This document shows, one piece after another, positions 10,126-39,844 of a DNA stretch of 43,001 bases. Origin of the DNA: a virus. The stretch spans positions 1 to 43,001 of IMG/VR virus record IMGVR_UViG_3300042306_000576; one strand, given 5' to 3'. The notes below the pieces were generated by a model. The model was given only the letters and a program-made list of their open reading frames with translations. It made no database searches and was not told the DNA's origin. The position numbers were made by a program, and so were the translations under genes. How positions within the stretch are numbered: the first letter of the stretch is position 1; each line of letters starts with the position of its first letter.

Positions 10126-10140
10126 GTTTTAACTTATTAG

Positions 10141-10282
10141 TAAAAGAGGGAGGAATCGAACCTCCGATGCTAAGTCACTTACTCCAACCAACTACTTCTT
10201 GTTACGTACCTTGAGCCTTTACGATTGACCGTCACATTAGTCCCACTCACAGTTCAGGAGCGACCTTATCTGCTACTCTTCC
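10141..10282 (-). tRNA. tRNA-like unit 1 (142 nt, middle not canonical)
   Basis: A perfect T-arm (GGAGG, TTCGATT, CCTCC) is followed by CTCTTTT and A. A matching 5' strand GGAAGAG, with two G-T pairs, begins at 10282 and is followed by a D-loop-like AGATAAGGTC. The distance is about twice that of a tRNA and I cannot place a standard anticodon arm. Either the gene carries an insertion, is degenerate, or is a tRNA-shaped end on a larger RNA. The 5' part looks like serine or tyrosine tRNAs. Confidence 0.35.
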
Positions 10283-10288
10283 ATTTTG

Positions 10289-10494
10289 TGGGGCCGGCAG
10301 AACTCGAATCTGCACGGAGCTTTCACAGTTAATGTACACTTACTGCTTTCACTTTTGAGTCATTTCCATTGTTGTATGTCTAAGTCCTTAGCAGACCCTG
10401 AATTGGTTAATTACTCCAAAACTTCAATACTTCTTTGTTACTGCTCTTACCACCTACTTCTAGCAGGTATGCCTTCCAATTACATCACGTCCCC
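10289..10494 (-). tRNA. tRNA-like unit 2 (206 nt, arginine-type 5' half)
   Basis: The T-arm GCAGA, TTCGAGT, TCTGC is followed by CGGCCCC and A. The 5' strand GGGGACG pairs with one mismatch. The D-arm TGATGTAATTGGAAGGCATA is typical of phage tRNA-Arg(UCU). It is followed by CCTGC-TAGAA-GTAGG, where the expected anticodon arm would be CCTGC-TTCTAA-GCAGG. About 130 extra bases follow before the T-arm. An intron-like insertion in the anticodon loop is one reading, decay another. Confidence 0.4.
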
Positions 10495-10592
10495 ATTTGA
10501 TGTCTTTCCATCAGTCACCCGTTAGATTGTGCTCTCTAGACTTTATGGGTAAGCCTCGTTAACCGTAAGCATTTCGGCTCGTCTGCAACTTA

Positions 10593-10629
10593 ACATAAAC
10601 CTGTGACGAGGTTTCCTTATTGTTTATGT
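10593..10629 (-). ncRNA. Long hairpin between tRNA units 2 and 3
   Basis: ACATAAAC (10593-10600) pairs perfectly with GTTTATGT (10622-10629). CCTCGT/ACGAGG and ACCC/GGGT pairings occur in the same spacer (10495-10638). No ORF here has coding character, so the spacer is probably part of a structured transcript. Confidence 0.5.
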
Positions 10630-10638
10630 CTTGCTAAG

Positions 10639-10712
10639 TGGTCCAGCATGGTCTCGAACCATGGACTCCCTGATTATGAGTCAGGTGCTCTAACCAACTG
10701 AGCTACAGGACC
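10639..10712 (-). tRNA. tRNA with CAU anticodon (Met or lysidine-modified Ile)
   Basis: Canonical 74-nt cloverleaf. Acceptor GGTCCTG/CTGGACC has one mismatch, the D-arm is GCTC-AGTTGGTTA-GAGC, the anticodon arm CCTGA-CTCATAA-TCAGG has anticodon CAT, and the T-arm is CATGG-TTCGAGA-CCATG. A73 is the discriminator and CCA is not encoded. Phages often carry the Ile2 type, but elongator Met cannot be excluded by eye. Confidence 0.93.
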
Positions 10713-11016
10713 AATTTGGGGAGATGTCGTTCTCCCCGGACGTGTTAGGCTGCAGATCTCATCTGTACCCCACCAAGTGTATAAACGTCAGCGTTTATTT
10801 TTGAAATTAATTCTCCTTATTACCTACTTATTGCCAATCAATACTATTTCACCCCCAATAACACCGGCTGTTTAAGGCACAACCGATAAAGCCTAGGTCT
10901 CTGATTTCTCATCGACTCCACCACCTTGTTTATAGTTCAAGGAAACTTTTGTGGAGGTGCCGGGCTCTGCCCCCGGGTCTTGCTCAAATTCAATAATAAA
11001 TCAACAAATCATTTCG
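10713..11016 (-). ncRNA. Hairpin-dense spacer, probable structured RNA
   Basis: No credible ORF in about 300 bases, but many perfect inverted repeats: GGGGAGA/TCTCCCC (10718-10737), CAGAT/ATCTG (10753-10765), ATAAACG/CGTTTAT with a four-base loop (10781-10798), CTCCAC/GTGGAG enclosing CTTG/CAAG (about 10915-10958), and CCGGG/CCCGG just after. Such density is unusual for an AT-rich spacer and points to a folded RNA. Ornate RNAs (GOLLD, ROOL) are known beside phage tRNAs. I cannot confirm membership. Confidence 0.55.
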
Positions 11017-11138
11017 TGATTGAGACAGGATTCGAACCTGTATAAATGGATAGGGAACCATTCTCCAATTGTAAGTTTGGCAACTCAGTCTATTTTTTAA
11101 GCATATCTGCTTGCGTCTACCAATTCCGCCACTCAATC
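11017..11138 (-). tRNA. tRNA-Leu(UAA)-like unit with insertion (122 nt)
   Basis: The acceptor GATTGAG/CTCAATC is perfect, A73 is present, and the T-arm is ACAGG-TTCGAAT-CCTGT. The D-arm GCGGAATTGGTAGACGC is diagnostic of leucine tRNAs. CTTAAAA, the leucine UAA anticodon loop, is present, but its flanks pair only weakly. They lie inside a longer helix GCAA..CAG/CTG..TTGC. The unit is some 37 nt longer than a normal tRNA-Leu. AATGG/CCATT forms a variable-arm-like hairpin before the T-arm. Best evidence in the locus for a tRNA with an expanded middle. Confidence 0.5.
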
Positions 11139-11393
11139 ATTTCCCCCATGTGGGGGCACTTGTCAAGGTCCGAGGTAGCGTGCTCAAGTCAAATGACTGA
11201 GCCTCGAATCTTCAATATCAAAATAACACAATAACCTATAAAAAATGGTAAAGCTTGGACTGAAAACGCCACACACCTACTTTACCTGGTAGGAGTCTTT
11301 TTATGCGTACTGGTCGCAACCTACAGGACCAACCGTGAGACTAGCTTCCTCCGTTGGTAGTCATCGTCCTAGTGCTAGTTCAGATGACTGCTG
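11139..11393 (-). ncRNA. Hairpin-dense spacer, probable structured RNA
   Basis: Gene-free. Perfect stems: CCCCC/GGGGG with loop ATGT (11143-11156), nested CGAG/CTCG, GCTCA/TGAGC and GTC/GAC (11171-11206), CCTAC/GTAGG (11276-11293), CCAAC/GTTGG (about 11330-11357) and GTCATC/GATGAC (11360-11388). The nested three-tier arm is the strongest single sign of RNA structure in the window. Confidence 0.55.
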
Positions 11394-11473
11394 CTGTTAG
11401 GGCCGGACTCGAACCGGAGAAGCAACCATTTTACTGGACTCGGGAACCAATCCCTCATTACGCCCACCTAACA
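11394..11473 (-). tRNA. tRNA-like unit 5 (about 80 nt, atypical)
   Basis: Acceptor TGTTAGG/CCTAACA and T-loop TTCGAGT with a four-pair core CCGG/CCGG. The length is normal, but neither a D-stem nor a seven-base anticodon loop can be placed. Instead ATTGG/CCAGT encloses TTCCCGAGT, similar to the TGGTTCCC hairpin in the leucine-like unit. Possibly degenerate. Confidence 0.35.
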
Positions 11474-11540
11474 AAATGAGCCCGTCTTTCCGAGCAGTCA
11501 ACATTGTGCAATTAGTGGGGCACGTTGCTCATAACCATTG

Positions 11541-11648
11541 GTACCGGTGAGAGACTCGAACTCTCATCTGCTGACAAATTAAGAGATGCTATCTCAGTCA
11601 ACATGTTAACCCAAGGTGGTATTTATTCCCACTTACACCAACCGGTAC
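11541..11648 (-). tRNA. tRNA-like unit 6 (about 107 nt, atypical middle)
   Basis: Acceptor TACCGGT/ACCGGTA is perfect, with T-arm GAGAG-TTCGAGT-CTCTC. The D-arm GTGTAAGTGGGAATAAATAC is plausible. The segment between D-arm and T-arm is about 51 nt (22 expected) and holds GAGAT/ATCTC and CTGA/TCAG pairings rather than a clear anticodon arm. Identity not assignable. Confidence 0.38.
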
Positions 11649-11790
11649 TCTATTTTACCAACCTGTGTCTTTCATGTAGCCTACCGAGTTATCAGTTACG
11701 GGGCTTGTACATGAGCAGGGTTTCTGATTGAGTGCAATGAGTAACGTTTTCCTACTGTAAACCCTTATTCGGAAATTAATACACTCTACT
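11649..11790 (-). ncRNA. Structured spacer upstream of the tRNA-like array
   Basis: CATGTA (11673-11678) pairs with TACATG (11708-11713) inside CCTG/CAGG (11662-11665 with 11716-11719). GCC/GGC stack inside. No coding ORF. It continues the hairpin-rich character of the locus up to the HNH gene end. Confidence 0.45.
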
Positions 11791-11792
11791 TC

Positions 11793-12131
11793 TCAATTAA
11801 CAGCGAGCATTGGTAAATTATTTTTGTTTTTAAAATAATGCTGTATATTTTCTTTTCTTGTTAACCATTCTAAATTAGAAAAATGATTATTTAACTTACT
11901 TCCATCTATGTGATTTACAGTTTCTTTGTTATTAATGTTTTCTACAAAATATTTAGCAACAAGTATATGTATTTTTACTTTAGTTACCTTGCCTTTTGTA
12001 GATATATTACAATATAAATACCCCCTAGCATTGATGTTTAGCCTTAACACTTTACCTTTTTTATTACGAAAATTACCATTATCTGATATTTCGTAATTAC
12101 TATTTTCTAAGAGGGTTTTCCAATTTTCCAT
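11793..12131 (-). CDS. HNH homing endonuclease with NUMOD4 domain
   Basis: 112 aa. The N-terminal NUMOD4-type DNA-binding part (WKTLLENSNYEISDNGNFRN, then RGYLYCNI) is followed by an HNH_3-type core: KIHILVAKYF, VNHIDGSKLNNHFSNLEWLT. Such enzymes cut DNA at a homing site and spread themselves, often within introns or beside tRNA genes. It sits in the middle of the RNA locus behind its own probable terminator/leader, so it is likely a mobile insertion there. The C-terminus is short and may be slightly truncated. Confidence 0.88.
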   Translation of the reverse strand: MENWKTLLENSNYEISDNGNFRNKKGKVLRLNINARGYLYCNISTKGKVTKVKIHILVAKYFVENINNKETVNHIDGSKLNNHFSNLEWLTRKENIQHYFKNKNNLPMLAVN

Positions 12132-12142
12132 AACATCAATTT

Positions 12143-12178
12143 AAAAATAAAGGTTTTATACATTATGGATAACCTTTA
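12143..12178 (-). terminator. Terminator-like hairpin before the HNH gene
   Basis: Minus strand TAAAGGTT (12171-12178) pairs perfectly over 8 bases with AACCTTTA (12148-12155), followed by five T. It ends a transcript coming from the gene-free region 12179-12658. Confidence 0.7.
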
Positions 12179-12658
12179 ACCATCTACCATTACTGATAGT
12201 ATCTTTATGCAAATTAAGTAATCAACCTATATCTTCCATTTACCACTATTACAGGTAACTTGTTTTGATTTTATGATTTGTCTTCGGCACTTATTTACAA
12301 AGGTATTCAATGTTTAACCTATTACATAAATTCCGTACTACCTGTGTAGGGGGGAATGCCCGAGTTAACTCAAGACCCTCTGCCTTACGTCTATTTACTA
12401 TAAAAACACACATCCATCAAGATTGGGAGAAAATTTGGATTGTTTGACTGCCTTACTCAAGCTCTCACCTAATTGGGGATGCAGCTCCATTTTATCATAC
12501 TTAACAAACATAACACCTCTTGATAGTGTTGTAATTCTGTTATGTTTTAAATCAATAGCGGGATTAGTGCCCAAGTCGCAAAGCTCACAGGCTTATACAT
12601 ATCCTATCTATACTTATCAGTCAATTACTTGTTTGTCTTTCTATGTGTGGCTTATGTT
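12179..12658 (-). ncRNA. Gene-free region downstream of SPFH gene, probable structured RNA
   Basis: About 480 bases without a convincing ORF. It contains CATAAC/GTTATG with inner AACAC/GTGTT (about 12508-12543), GGG/CCC pairs, and AAGGCAGTCAAA, which also occurs at the 5' end of the small RNA at 13694-13914. A -7-like TACCTTTG lies at 12298-12305 without a good -33. It ends in the hairpin at 12143-12178. It may be the upstream half of the RNA locus split by the HNH gene. Confidence 0.45.
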
Positions 12659-13954: not shown

Positions 13955-14650
13955 TTATTTAAAATATTTTTTATAAATTTTATGATAGGCTTCTATTTCC
14001 TTAGCTACCTTATCAAACTTATTCAAAAATGTCTCTGCTCTTTCTTTAGAGTAAGGTGTTGGTATGTAAGCAATCTCTCCTGTTAATCTAAGAGGATACT
14101 TTTCTTGACCGTTCCCCTTTCTATCTACTAGCATTACACCTGAATAAGCAATCTTCTCTCCCTCTAACTCTCTTTGATAAGCGTATAGAGTTGTTTGTTG
14201 ATAATCATCTCCTCCGTAGTCTTTGGCTTTCTTATCAATTGCCCCAGTCTTTAAATCCTGGATTACTAAACCATTTTCCCCTTGGTACTCTTGGTCAATA
14301 AATCCTTGGATAACATAAGAACCTCTATCAACAACTACTTCAACCTCGTATTTTGCATTCTCCGGCCTTGTAATCTGAGATAGTACAGAAATATCAAACT
14401 CTGAAAGATCTGATGTCTCAAGCTTCTCTAAGAACTCTCCGCACTTACTACCATACTCTGTGAAGATATTTCCCTCTCCTCTGATACCTAAGAAGTAATT
14501 AGCAAAAAACTCTCCTCGATAAGCCTGTTCAGTAAACGACCCGTAGGCAGAATAACTAAGTTTCGGCATGCCCTCGTACTTCTTGTACTTTTCAGGGGTC
14601 TTCTCGTTTACCTCATATACTTTGGGTAAATCTAATAACTTATTTGTCAT
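13955..14650 (-). CDS. PD-(D/E)XK nuclease, RecB-like
   Basis: 231 aa. The nuclease core reads YVIQGFIDQEYQ (motif I D), LVIQDLKTGA (D-x-K) and QTTLYAYQRELEG (Q...Y helix), the order seen in RecB/Cas4-type exonucleases. The N-terminal half is helical (LSYSAYGSFTEQAYRGEFF). No cysteine cluster of Cas4 is present. It probably digests or processes DNA ends in phage recombination or host DNA breakdown. It overlaps the mobile GIY-YIG gene by 11 bases, and the exonuclease gene is just beyond, so the two nucleases were probably adjacent before that insertion. Confidence 0.85.
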   Translation of the reverse strand: MTNKLLDLPKVYEVNEKTPEKYKKYEGMPKLSYSAYGSFTEQAYRGEFFANYFLGIRGEGNIFTEYGSKCGEFLEKLETSDLSEFDISVLSQITRPENAKYEVEVVVDRGSYVIQGFIDQEYQGENGLVIQDLKTGAIDKKAKDYGGDDYQQTTLYAYQRELEGEKIAYSGVMLVDRKGNGQEKYPLRLTGEIAYIPTPYSKERAETFLNKFDKVAKEIEAYHKIYKKYFK

Positions 14651-15449
14651 ATATTAAATTTGTTTTATTTTTTTGTTTACCTCTTAGCATATCTCTTAAT
14701 ATACCACAACTAATACCTAAGGATTCAGCTGCATCTTTTATGGAGCTGTAGTAAATACCAGACTCTGTATCTAAAAGAGTCTTTGAGTTTGGATTATTAC
14801 CTCCTCTAATATTAGCCTTAACTTTGCTAACTAATTTACCTTTTTCGTAGTTATCTACTAATACTAAACTAGTATTATTTATAGCTGTTCCTACAAGTCT
14901 GGTGTAAAGTTGTTTGTAAGTCATATTTCGTGATACGCTTGCCTCTTGTATACTTTCATAAAAGATACCGCTTATTAGACAAATCACTAATTTTGAAGAG
15001 TGGTTTAACTCTCCTGTTTGAGATTTCCTAAAGTTGCTAATCTTATCTTTTAAATACTTTGGCATAGTCTTCCCAAAATTATGGTGTTTTTCACCAGAGA
15101 TGCTAGGTCTTTTTACCCCTCTTAGTTTACTGGCTCTTTTCTCTACAGTTTCTTTTGCATCGTACCCTGACTTATCTTTTGTTGATACTCTTCTGCAATT
15201 TAATCCACTATGAATAGAATTATAAAAATCTTGCCAATAACCCTCTCTATTTGATAACTCAAAAACACTACATTCTTCAACTACCTCAAAAGTATGATTT
15301 TTAGCCTCATACTTTTTAAGGGAGTTAAAAAGCTTAACTTGACCTTTGCAGTCTAATCTTTTATAATGTGCTAATCTACTATCAATATCTACACTTTGCC
15401 CTATGTAAATTTTACCACTAGGGGAAGTTATTTTATATATACCTATCAT
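14640..15449 (-). CDS. GIY-YIG homing endonuclease with NUMOD repeats
   Basis: 269 aa from ATG 15449 (MIGIYKITSPSGK). An earlier start would lie inside the promoter. The GIY-YIG domain is at the N-terminus (GIYKI, KIYIGQS, DSRLAHY, catalytic E in NREGYWQDFY). Two DNA-binding repeats at the C-terminus (GIFYESIQEAS, GIYYSSIKDAAESLGIS) are of the NUMOD1/IENR type, with a linker KLRGVKRPSISGEKHHNFG typical of NUMOD3. A stand-alone mobile gene inserted between two nuclease genes, with its own promoter. Confidence 0.92.
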   Translation of the reverse strand: MIGIYKITSPSGKIYIGQSVDIDSRLAHYKRLDCKGQVKLFNSLKKYEAKNHTFEVVEECSVFELSNREGYWQDFYNSIHSGLNCRRVSTKDKSGYDAKETVEKRASKLRGVKRPSISGEKHHNFGKTMPKYLKDKISNFRKSQTGELNHSSKLVICLISGIFYESIQEASVSRNMTYKQLYTRLVGTAINNTSLVLVDNYEKGKLVSKVKANIRGGNNPNSKTLLDTESGIYYSSIKDAAESLGISCGILRDMLRGKQKNKTNLIYDK

Positions 15450-15462
15450 AAATAATTTTTTA

Positions 15463-15492
15463 CAAAGGTAAAAAATAAATAACACTTTTCAA
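15463..15492 (-). promoter_or_regulatory. Bacteroidetes-type promoter for the homing endonuclease
   Basis: -33 TTG (15490-15492), 19-base spacer, -7 TACCTTTG (15463-15470), 13 bases before the GIY-YIG start codon. The leader would be very short. Confidence 0.82.
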
Positions 15493-23899: not shown

Positions 23900-24148
23900 T
23901 TAGTAATTAAATATGTAAGTTTTTACAAAGTCATCATACTGATTGTATTCATCAATATAATACTTTTTTGTGACATGGCTAAATATCCATTTTCTGCCAT
24001 CTTTTTCTTGTATTTGACACAATGTATCAATTATCTCTTTTCTTGTCTCCTGAGGAGTATTTTCGATACTCTCGAGATAGTCTTCTACTTCCTTAAAGCT
24101 AATTAATATTTTTGCCATGCTAAAACTCAATATACTCAACTTTTTCAA
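23900..24148 (-). CDS. Unknown protein, 82 aa
   Basis: Soluble, with EKDGRKWIFSHVTKKYYIDEY. A start at MAKILISFKEVEDY (24118) is equally possible and would avoid most of the overlap with the upstream gene. Not recognised. Confidence 0.62.
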   Translation of the reverse strand: MKKLSILSFSMAKILISFKEVEDYLESIENTPQETRKEIIDTLCQIQEKDGRKWIFSHVTKKYYIDEYNQYDDFVKTYIFNY

Positions 24149-24350
24149 GTAGTAACCCCTCTAGGTATTTTAAGTCTTTATCGAAGACATTGTCTATATC
24201 ATACTCTTTCAGTTGCTCTATACTTAAACTAGTAGAATATTGTCTTTGGTTTGGGTCATCTTTTGCAACCATAGACCACTCTACTTCTTGTTGTATAACG
24301 ACCATAGCTAATCCCGAAATTCTTGGTTGGTATTGTACTATAATTCTCAT
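24120..24350 (-). CDS. Unknown protein, 76 aa
   Basis: Beta then helix (RIIVQYQPRISGLAMVVIQQ). Sits between overlapping small genes. No family recognised. Confidence 0.65.
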   Translation of the reverse strand: MRIIVQYQPRISGLAMVVIQQEVEWSMVAKDDPNQRQYSTSLSIEQLKEYDIDNVFDKDLKYLEGLLLEKVEYIEF

Positions 24351-24354
24351 ACCT

Positions 24355-24594
24355 TTACTTTTTAGGATTTACAAACTCCACATAAATAGAGTCGCTAACT
24401 TTATACACTCTTAAGGTATCTCCAACCTCTGCCATTTGAATTTCTTCGGGAAGAGATACATTTGAGTTGTTGTTAAGGTCAGGTCTGAATATAAAAAAGA
24501 CCGTTGCTAAAAAACTTAATACTAGCACAAACTTTAGTACCACACTAATTCTGTCGCTATATTTGTCGTGAAAATTTTTGATTGATTTAAACAT
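24355..24594 (-). CDS. Membrane-anchored protein, 79 aa
   Basis: One membrane segment at about 18-37 (VVLKFVLVLSFLATVFFIF) with a short acidic exported or cytoplasmic part. Unknown. Confidence 0.68.
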   Translation of the reverse strand: MFKSIKNFHDKYSDRISVVLKFVLVLSFLATVFFIFRPDLNNNSNVSLPEEIQMAEVGDTLRVYKVSDSIYVEFVNPKK

Positions 24595-39756: not shown

Positions 39757-39770
39757 CTTACTTTATTTAG

Positions 39771-39844
39771 ACTTGCTGGAGGGATTCGAACCCACGGTTT
39801 TCAGTTTTGCAGACTTATTCTTTGGACCACTCAGACACAGCAAG
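39771..39844 (-). tRNA. tRNA-Cys(GCA)
   Basis: 74 nt, normal cloverleaf. Acceptor CTTGCTG/CAGCAAG is perfect, the D-arm is TCT...AGA with GTGG, and the anticodon arm TAAGT-CTGCAAA-ACTGA has anticodon GCA. The T-arm GTGGG-TTCGAAT-CCCTC has one mismatch. U73 is the cysteine discriminator. The HNH gene ends 8 bases before its 5' end. Confidence 0.93.

Follow-up and report, generated by a model that had tools for sequence, protein, structure and literature searches.

A phage RNA island with a covarying core RNA, a predicted permuted tmRNA, and tRNA-like units

Comparison with related phages identifies positions 10136 to 12658 of a viral DNA sequence as a real RNA island, which carries part of a core RNA with covarying helices together with tRNA-like units, a predicted permuted transfer-messenger RNA (tmRNA), and a canonical tRNA. 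The window analyzed is the whole stretch of 43,001 nucleotides (nt) at positions 1 to 43,001 of the IMG/VR virus record IMGVR_UViG_3300042306_000576. All parts of the island lie on the minus strand, and the locus resembles a string of exchangeable domains more than a single RNA. These parts, their strand, their conservation, and their exchange are well supported by sequence comparison, from which processing, expression, and the function of the core may be inferred. The preferred reading, which has about an even chance of being correct, is that a single precursor would be cut at the units with a tRNA fold, which would signal processing and cap the ends.

The 5′ part of the core RNA (helices P1, P2, and P3, its first third) lies at positions 12184 to 12319 of the minus strand, where the covariance model R1 matches with 44.2 bits (E = 3.4e-8, model positions 6 to 68). 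Two conserved blocks upstream of the HNH gene described below served as DNA patterns for a search of IMG/VR. The 20-mer GATACTATCAGTAATGGTAG occurs there in 63 stretches, many on contigs of 100 to 373 kb, and the 54 distinct sequences around it share seven helices: P1 (loop TAAACATTGA), P2, P3, P4, P5 (loop CTTGAGAAA), the optional P6, and P7. When 34 complete core sequences are aligned at 41 base pairs, 92.9% of the cells are paired, compared to just 38 to 53% in slid versions of the alignment. Compensatory changes are found in 21 of the 41 pairs, with 73 cells changed on both sides, and none of 500 shuffles reaches as high. P4 alone is seen as UGUGUUG/CAACACA and as ACGUGAG/CUCACGU. P3 does not vary, having served as the search pattern, and so counts as no evidence. 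RNAalifold does not draw P1, P2, and P6 on the core alignment A1, probably because loops were cut short. Since homologues were collected through exact motifs, their diversity is underestimated, and the conclusions on the whole core rest on the relatives, the copy in the window being partial.

The initial annotation, made from the letters of the window, had proposed covariation in homologous loci as a check, and covariation proved strong. It had also listed one HNH gene, one canonical tRNA, and five pairs of T arm and acceptor in an interval otherwise free of credible open reading frames (ORFs); each of these is found again here, and no ORF other than that of the HNH gene is credible within the interval. 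The permuted tmRNA and the placement of everything on the minus strand were overlooked. A stem density above chance, likewise claimed, did not hold up: minimum-free-energy z-scores, computed against shuffles in 120-nt windows of the minus strand, average −0.20 in the island (41 windows) and −0.25 in the rest of the window (134 windows; Mann-Whitney p = 0.43), and the plus strand of the island is similar. The stems are judged real from the comparison with relatives.

Relatives were gathered by a protein search with the SPFH gene product, which gave 23 loci on contigs of up to 256 kb; single loci are cited below by L numbers and records by G numbers. Of 23 large-phage records searched with model R1, 20 contain the core, 18 of them with a single match and two with a double match, and the records carrying it reach 373 kb. 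The core is intergenic in these relatives, in varied contexts. At least one of the two records with a double match, G019/L024, has an HNH gene that splits the core. The core of the window is likewise interrupted: a NUMOD4-HNH homing endonuclease gene (positions 11793 to 12131, minus strand; Pfam PF13392 [HNH_3] and PF07463 [NUMOD4], both domains over the cutoff) occupies the place of P4 to P7, with its last codons within conserved RNA sequence. Model R1 finds no core match 3′ of this gene in the window. An HNH gene stands after P3 in L024 and L139 as well, and L009 has P4 to P7 and no HNH gene. In the core of the window, the gene replaces P4 to P7.

The core matches no Rfam family: searches of the window region and of L011 at E ≤ 10 return tRNA, tmRNA, and weak subthreshold hits only. 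By blastn against isolated phages, the core region of L146 is without a match, and the listed matches of L011, from Flavobacterium phages, cover the tmRNA part only. A search of open-access papers gave no description of such an RNA.

Across the relatives, the core consists of a fixed scaffold with hypervariable helix tips. T-arm-like hairpins sit on some tips, such as the P7 tip of L105 (ACAGG-TTTGAAT-CCTGT) and the P2 tip of L133, and similar tips are seen on different helices in different phages, e.g., on P2 of L124 and P6 of L141. A systematic search for exchange of tips between helices gives 3 clear cross-site cases; judged by these sequences, such exchange happens, and any commonness beyond the 3 cases is unsupported. 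A trans-acting role of the core is suggested by its single copy, the fixed scaffold, and the variable tips. Alternatively, the core could be a cis-regulatory leader of the following gene, and in L112, L117, L127, L132, and L144 an ORF does start some 30 to 80 nt past P7. The following genes look unrelated, however, in other loci linkers, tRNA-like units, or a tmRNA come after the core, and most records have one core copy per genome, so that a cis-regulatory role is extremely improbable.

GOLLD is a large phage-encoded RNA with elaborate helices and variable tips that lies near tRNAs and sometimes contains tRNAs in a linker (PMC12286853). The initial annotation had proposed an RNA of the GOLLD or ROOL kind, or of a new class, with tRNAs embedded. 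Of this proposal, structured, covarying parts without an Rfam match remain, and the single RNA does not; the proposed transcription as one unit is plausible. Neither known family is matched in the window. For GOLLD (RF02032, gathering threshold of 150 bits) there is no window match at E ≤ 1, nor with cmscan at E ≤ 10; a dedicated search of 12 records including the window gives one match, at positions 24064 to 24471 of G005 (284.7 bits), which serves as a positive control. ROOL (RF03087) gives no match in the window or in the record search, which had no positive control for this family. On these comparisons the core appears distinct from both. The related possibility that core and linkers form one giant RNA, self-assembling in the manner of GOLLD and ROOL with the tRNAs and units built in or enclosed, is unlikely. 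Its phage origin, the nearness of tRNAs, and the elaborate helices with variable tips do recall GOLLD (PMC12286853), and the core is a dedicated single-copy gene in most records. Against it stand the missing GOLLD or ROOL matches in the window and most relatives and the separate occurrence of the domains, as in L030, where genes lie between the 5′ domain, upstream, and the P8 domain, downstream. Moreover, G005, a 309-kb phage with a tRNA array (the record of L026), has its true GOLLD more than 200 kb from its core match (positions 240967 to 241158, 38.7 bits).

The five tRNA-like units of the island, all on the minus strand, are predicted from their acceptor stems and T arms. The D arm is usually retained too, and the anticodon half is enlarged. 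Unit A (positions 11542 to 11647) has the acceptor TACCGGT/ACCGGTA and the T arm GAGAG-TTCGAGT-CTCTC, with the usual anticodon arm absent. Unit B (11395 to 11473) is compact, with the acceptor TGTTAGG/CCTAACA, and has related units in L123, L126, and L161. Unit C (11018 to 11138) shows a Leu-type acceptor (GATTGAG/CTCAATC), a Leu-type D arm, and the T arm ACAGG/CCTGT around a middle of 71 nt, where the usual anticodon arm is also absent. Unit D (10290 to 10494), with 205 nt, combines the acceptor GGGGACG/CGGCCCC and the T arm GCAGA/TCTGC with a 155-nt middle, and unit E (10142 to 10282), with a homologue in L030 and L060, has the acceptor GGAAGAG/CTCTTTT and the T arm GGAGG/CCTCC. The acceptor of unit D forms 6 of 7 pairs; apart from this, units A to E show a 7-bp acceptor and a T arm. 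Unit C reaches 25.7 bits with the tRNA model, under the gathering threshold of 29, and the other four are unlisted.

Around the cores of the relatives, a finder requiring acceptor, D arm, and T arm detects 76 such units, compared to 0.33 in shuffled sequence, and about half of the 76 have a middle part of at least 44 nt. Among 33 distinct units of normal length, 23 have a canonical anticodon arm, and among 22 enlarged ones, 3 do; in shuffled middles the share is 5%. Units A and C have none, and unit D possibly has one, being one of the 3 enlarged units so counted; units B and E lie outside this count. Many tRNA-like units are of the Leu type (D arm GGCGGAATTGGTAGACGC). The acceptor GATTGAG/CTCAATC and its T arm are common to unit C of the window, L024, L106, and L143, with unrelated middles, and L009 carries a tRNA-Ile at the position of unit C. 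The middle of L024 can be drawn by inspection as a candidate pseudoknot (GTACAG/CTGTAC with GTGAG/CTCAC).

Because the same acceptor and T arms go with unrelated middles, both introns and simple decay are argued against. In the intron explanation, the units would be tRNAs whose anticodon region holds an intron of a novel type, removed by splicing to leave normal tRNAs; the normal acceptor, D, and T arms with extra sequence between D and T arms would fit it. The middles under identical acceptor and T arms share nothing at their ends, though, where the exons of the anticodon stem would be expected, the anticodons assigned by ARAGORN when introns are permitted are inconsistent, no canonical arms are seen, and the group I intron model (RF00028) has no match in the region. 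This explanation is accordingly very improbable.

Phages are known to use tRNAs of their own against defenses that cleave tRNA. The units and the variable tips might act as decoys or sponges for host enzymes that target tRNA or detect phage RNA, with the fast turnover of the tips reflecting an arms race, as the fixed scaffold, the hypervariable tips, and the T-arm-like hairpins at tips (L105) would allow. Units lacking an anticodon arm would not trap anticodon nucleases, however, and a decoy function is distinctly unlikely.

A leader hairpin of the form TGAC-stem-GGAAAGAC-stem′ precedes unit B (positions 11477 to 11501, minus strand), and another, TGACTGATGGAAAGACATCA, precedes unit D (10495 to 10519, minus strand); both are predicted from covariation. 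Among 16 distinct stems, 95% of the cells are paired, compared to 53% after column shuffling, with none of 5000 shuffles as high. This count is anchored on the loop and replaced the MAFFT alignment A3, whose stems were out of register. Of the leader copies with a stem, 14 of 27 precede a unit detected by ARAGORN or the unit finder, and the end of the loop then lies 7 to 9 nt from the acceptor. The units that follow are tRNA-Trp, -Pro, -Ala, -Arg, and -Met, a tmRNA, and tRNA-like units. Variant leaders such as GGAACAGAC occur in large tRNA arrays. The arrays of L186 to L194 contain many tRNAs spaced by 50 to 250 nt, with other leader types recurring (e.g., CAGAACGGATACGAGAACCGGCTCTAATT and GTAGG-TGATGAA-CCTAC).

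Two linker domains lie on the minus strand. The first (positions 11648 to 11824), containing TTTACCAATGCTCGCTGTTA, AAGCCCCGTAACTGATAACTCGGTAGGCT, and GAAAGACACAGG in this order, is 99.4% identical to L008 and has related copies in L146, L161, and L163. The second (10520 to 10637, ∼120 nt) leads from the canonical tRNA to unit D with the predicted helices CATAAAC/GTTTATG, CTCGTC/GACGAG, and ACCC/GGGT; it shows compensatory changes, is near-identical in L030, L060, and L120, where the flanking units are different, and is also matched in L130. Between the window and L008, linkers are 96 to 99% identical, and units B and C, the canonical tRNA, and everything after this tRNA differ. Linker conservation can be rated as high, not extreme, because nrdA and nrdB are 92 to 95% and the SPFH gene 78% identical in the same comparison.

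The 5′ RNA domain (positions 12399 to 12534, minus strand) is formed by the hairpin AACAC-TATCAAGAG-GTGTT, the conserved sequence TTGTTAAGTATGATAA, and then TCCCAATCTTGATGG. In 12 distinct loci, 98.6% of the cells are paired, with compensatory change in 2 pairs. TCTTGAT within TCCCAATCTTGATGG is complementary to the hairpin loop and gives a candidate pseudoknot, which stays a prediction because its strand never varies. The domain lies directly before tRNA-Cys in L191 and before a protein gene in L030, and in L064 and L072 its motif occurs twice in one phage, ∼1.2 kb apart. The P8 domain (11144 to 11218, minus strand), CGAGG-[CTCAGTCATTTGACTTGAG]-CACGCTA-CCTCG with a G+C-rich hairpin, stands directly before a tRNA-like unit, as it stands before a tRNA or tRNA-like unit in L008, L009, and L030 and before a one-piece tmRNA in L011, L024, and L150.

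Phage tRNA genes decay often, and the units could be decaying tRNA genes with linkers that are nonfunctional or merely recently recombined DNA. A hairpin density not above chance and the eroded look of unit B and the interrupted core would agree with this. On the other hand, the acceptor and T arms stay paired while the middle diverges, the linkers are near-identical between different neighbors and more conserved between the window and L008 than nrdA/nrdB and the SPFH gene, and compensatory changes are present in the core, the leader hairpins, and the 5′ domain. Covariation in particular disfavors decay, for which there is very little probability.

Positions 10745 to 11009 of the minus strand are assigned by model matches to an alpha-type permuted, two-piece tmRNA. 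RF04321 matches over its full length (model positions 1 to 213) with 58.4 bits (gathering threshold of 47), and RF01849 matches with 50.8 bits (gathering threshold of 50). The predicted acceptor piece covers about 11009 to 10952, and the 5′ tRNA half begins at 10856. The tag, ADVYTLGGVQMRSAA followed by a stop, is encoded at 10792 to 10745 and ends in Ala-Ala, and the alanine identity pair G3-U70 is kept (GGGGGUG/CACCUCC). Homologues in L008, L009, and L030 have a conserved tag frame, with tags ending in NVYTLGGVQMRSAA and a stop in L008 and in NVYTLGGVQKRFAA and a stop in L030; the tag-frame sequence VYTLGGVQMRSAA is common to the window and L008, and L030 has VYTLGGVQKRFAA. L011, L024, and L150 have a one-piece tmRNA instead, after the P8 domain that precedes unit C in the window. 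The one-piece tmRNAs of L011, L024, L106, L141, L147, and L150 carry long tags such as ANAQIEANMNKVFSLLGEEVAVAA. The canonical tRNA (10638 to 10712, minus strand; ARAGORN; RF00005, 67.6 bits) has the anticodon CAU and is of the elongator Met or Ile2 type.

RNase P and the 3′ tRNA-processing enzymes mainly recognize the acceptor and T arms. Under the preferred reading, a minus-strand precursor probably runs on from the upstream SPFH/band-7 gene, and the host enzymes would cut it at each tRNA fold, with the tRNA-like units as punctuation and as caps protecting the ends of the intervening RNAs. That the acceptor and T arms persist, that the anticodon half varies freely, and that tRNAs, tRNA-like units, and tmRNAs share a leader hairpin would follow from this. 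The core would serve during infection as a stable RNA acting in trans, with a fixed scaffold and replaceable helix tips, and ribosome rescue would fall to the tmRNA. Bacteroidota-like promoters are seen immediately before P1 in L147 and immediately upstream of the 5′ domain in L023, L029, L030, and L060. The RNA region of L011 terminates in a hairpin, then T-rich sequence. Several points weigh against processing of one precursor: the core copy of the window is incomplete, some relatives have the core directly before ordinary genes with no tRNA fold near, so that co-processing is not universal, the exact GGAAAGAC leader precedes just 4 of 187 tRNAs in the large tRNA arrays of these phages, no good promoter is found near the island of the window itself, and recognition of the units by RNase P and RNase Z is assumed from general knowledge. 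A further proposal, tentative and somewhat doubtful, is a new RNA system of large phages in which a fixed single-copy scaffold with replaceable helix tips is linked by a shared leader hairpin to tRNAs, tmRNAs, and a new class of tRNA-like units without a decoding arm. Its parts would be shuffled between phages as cassettes, and the tRNA-like units would have functions of their own (charged, bound to EF-Tu, or structural) beyond signaling for processing.

The neighboring genes in the window encode the SPFH/band-7 protein, NrdA, NrdB, an ATP-dependent DNA ligase, and GroEL. The G+C content is 44% at positions 10136 to 11790 and 34% window-wide. Promoter-like sites of the Bacteroidota type (TTTG-N17-23-TAnnTTTG) number 11, compared to 3.1 expected, with none of 100 shuffles as high, and a scan for sigma-70-type promoters gives no excess. 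Because of this promoter excess and the blastn resemblance of the one-piece tmRNA region of L011 to Flavobacterium phage sequences, the host is probably a member of the Bacteroidota. In GTDB, no genome carries the exact P3 20-mer, and no relatives of NrdB are found. A gene for a GIY-YIG homing-type endonuclease with an I-HmuI-like NUMOD, the latter below the cutoff, lies near the island (14640 to 15485, minus strand), and a lone canonical tRNA-Cys (39770 to 39844, minus strand; ARAGORN and Rfam) lies ∼29 kb from it.

Few RNAs are as poorly understood as the large RNAs of phages, GOLLD and ROOL among them. The island adds a core RNA that is supported by covariation, is unmatched in Rfam, and occurs once in most large-phage records tested, one of which also has GOLLD. 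Its units without a decoding arm offer a natural test of uses of the tRNA fold other than decoding, namely, processing, charging, protection, or decoy, and the leader hairpin and the exchangeable linkers provide concrete experimental handles. It further shows permuted and one-piece tmRNAs replacing each other across related phages.

Among known systems, GOLLD resembles the island of the window in being phage encoded and near tRNAs, and ROOL in being a phage RNA often near tRNA islands. The GOLLD model, however, has no match in the window or in 10 of 11 relatives tested, and the island has separable domains among which several tRNA-like units are interleaved. The HNH gene is an ordinary member of the phage HNH homing endonucleases with NUMOD4 and HNH_3, but it is located in a structured RNA gene and not in a recognizable intron. 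Two-piece tmRNAs on phages have already been reported, including that of the methylophage Melnitz (PMC9004378); compared to these, the tmRNA of the window belongs to a probable Bacteroidota phage and is interleaved with tRNA-like units. The tRNA-like domain of tmRNA and other tRNA-like structures keep the acceptor, D, and T arms with the anticodon arm replaced, as predicted here, whereas in the island several such units stand in a row, and none of A to E has a recognized tag frame or a known function.

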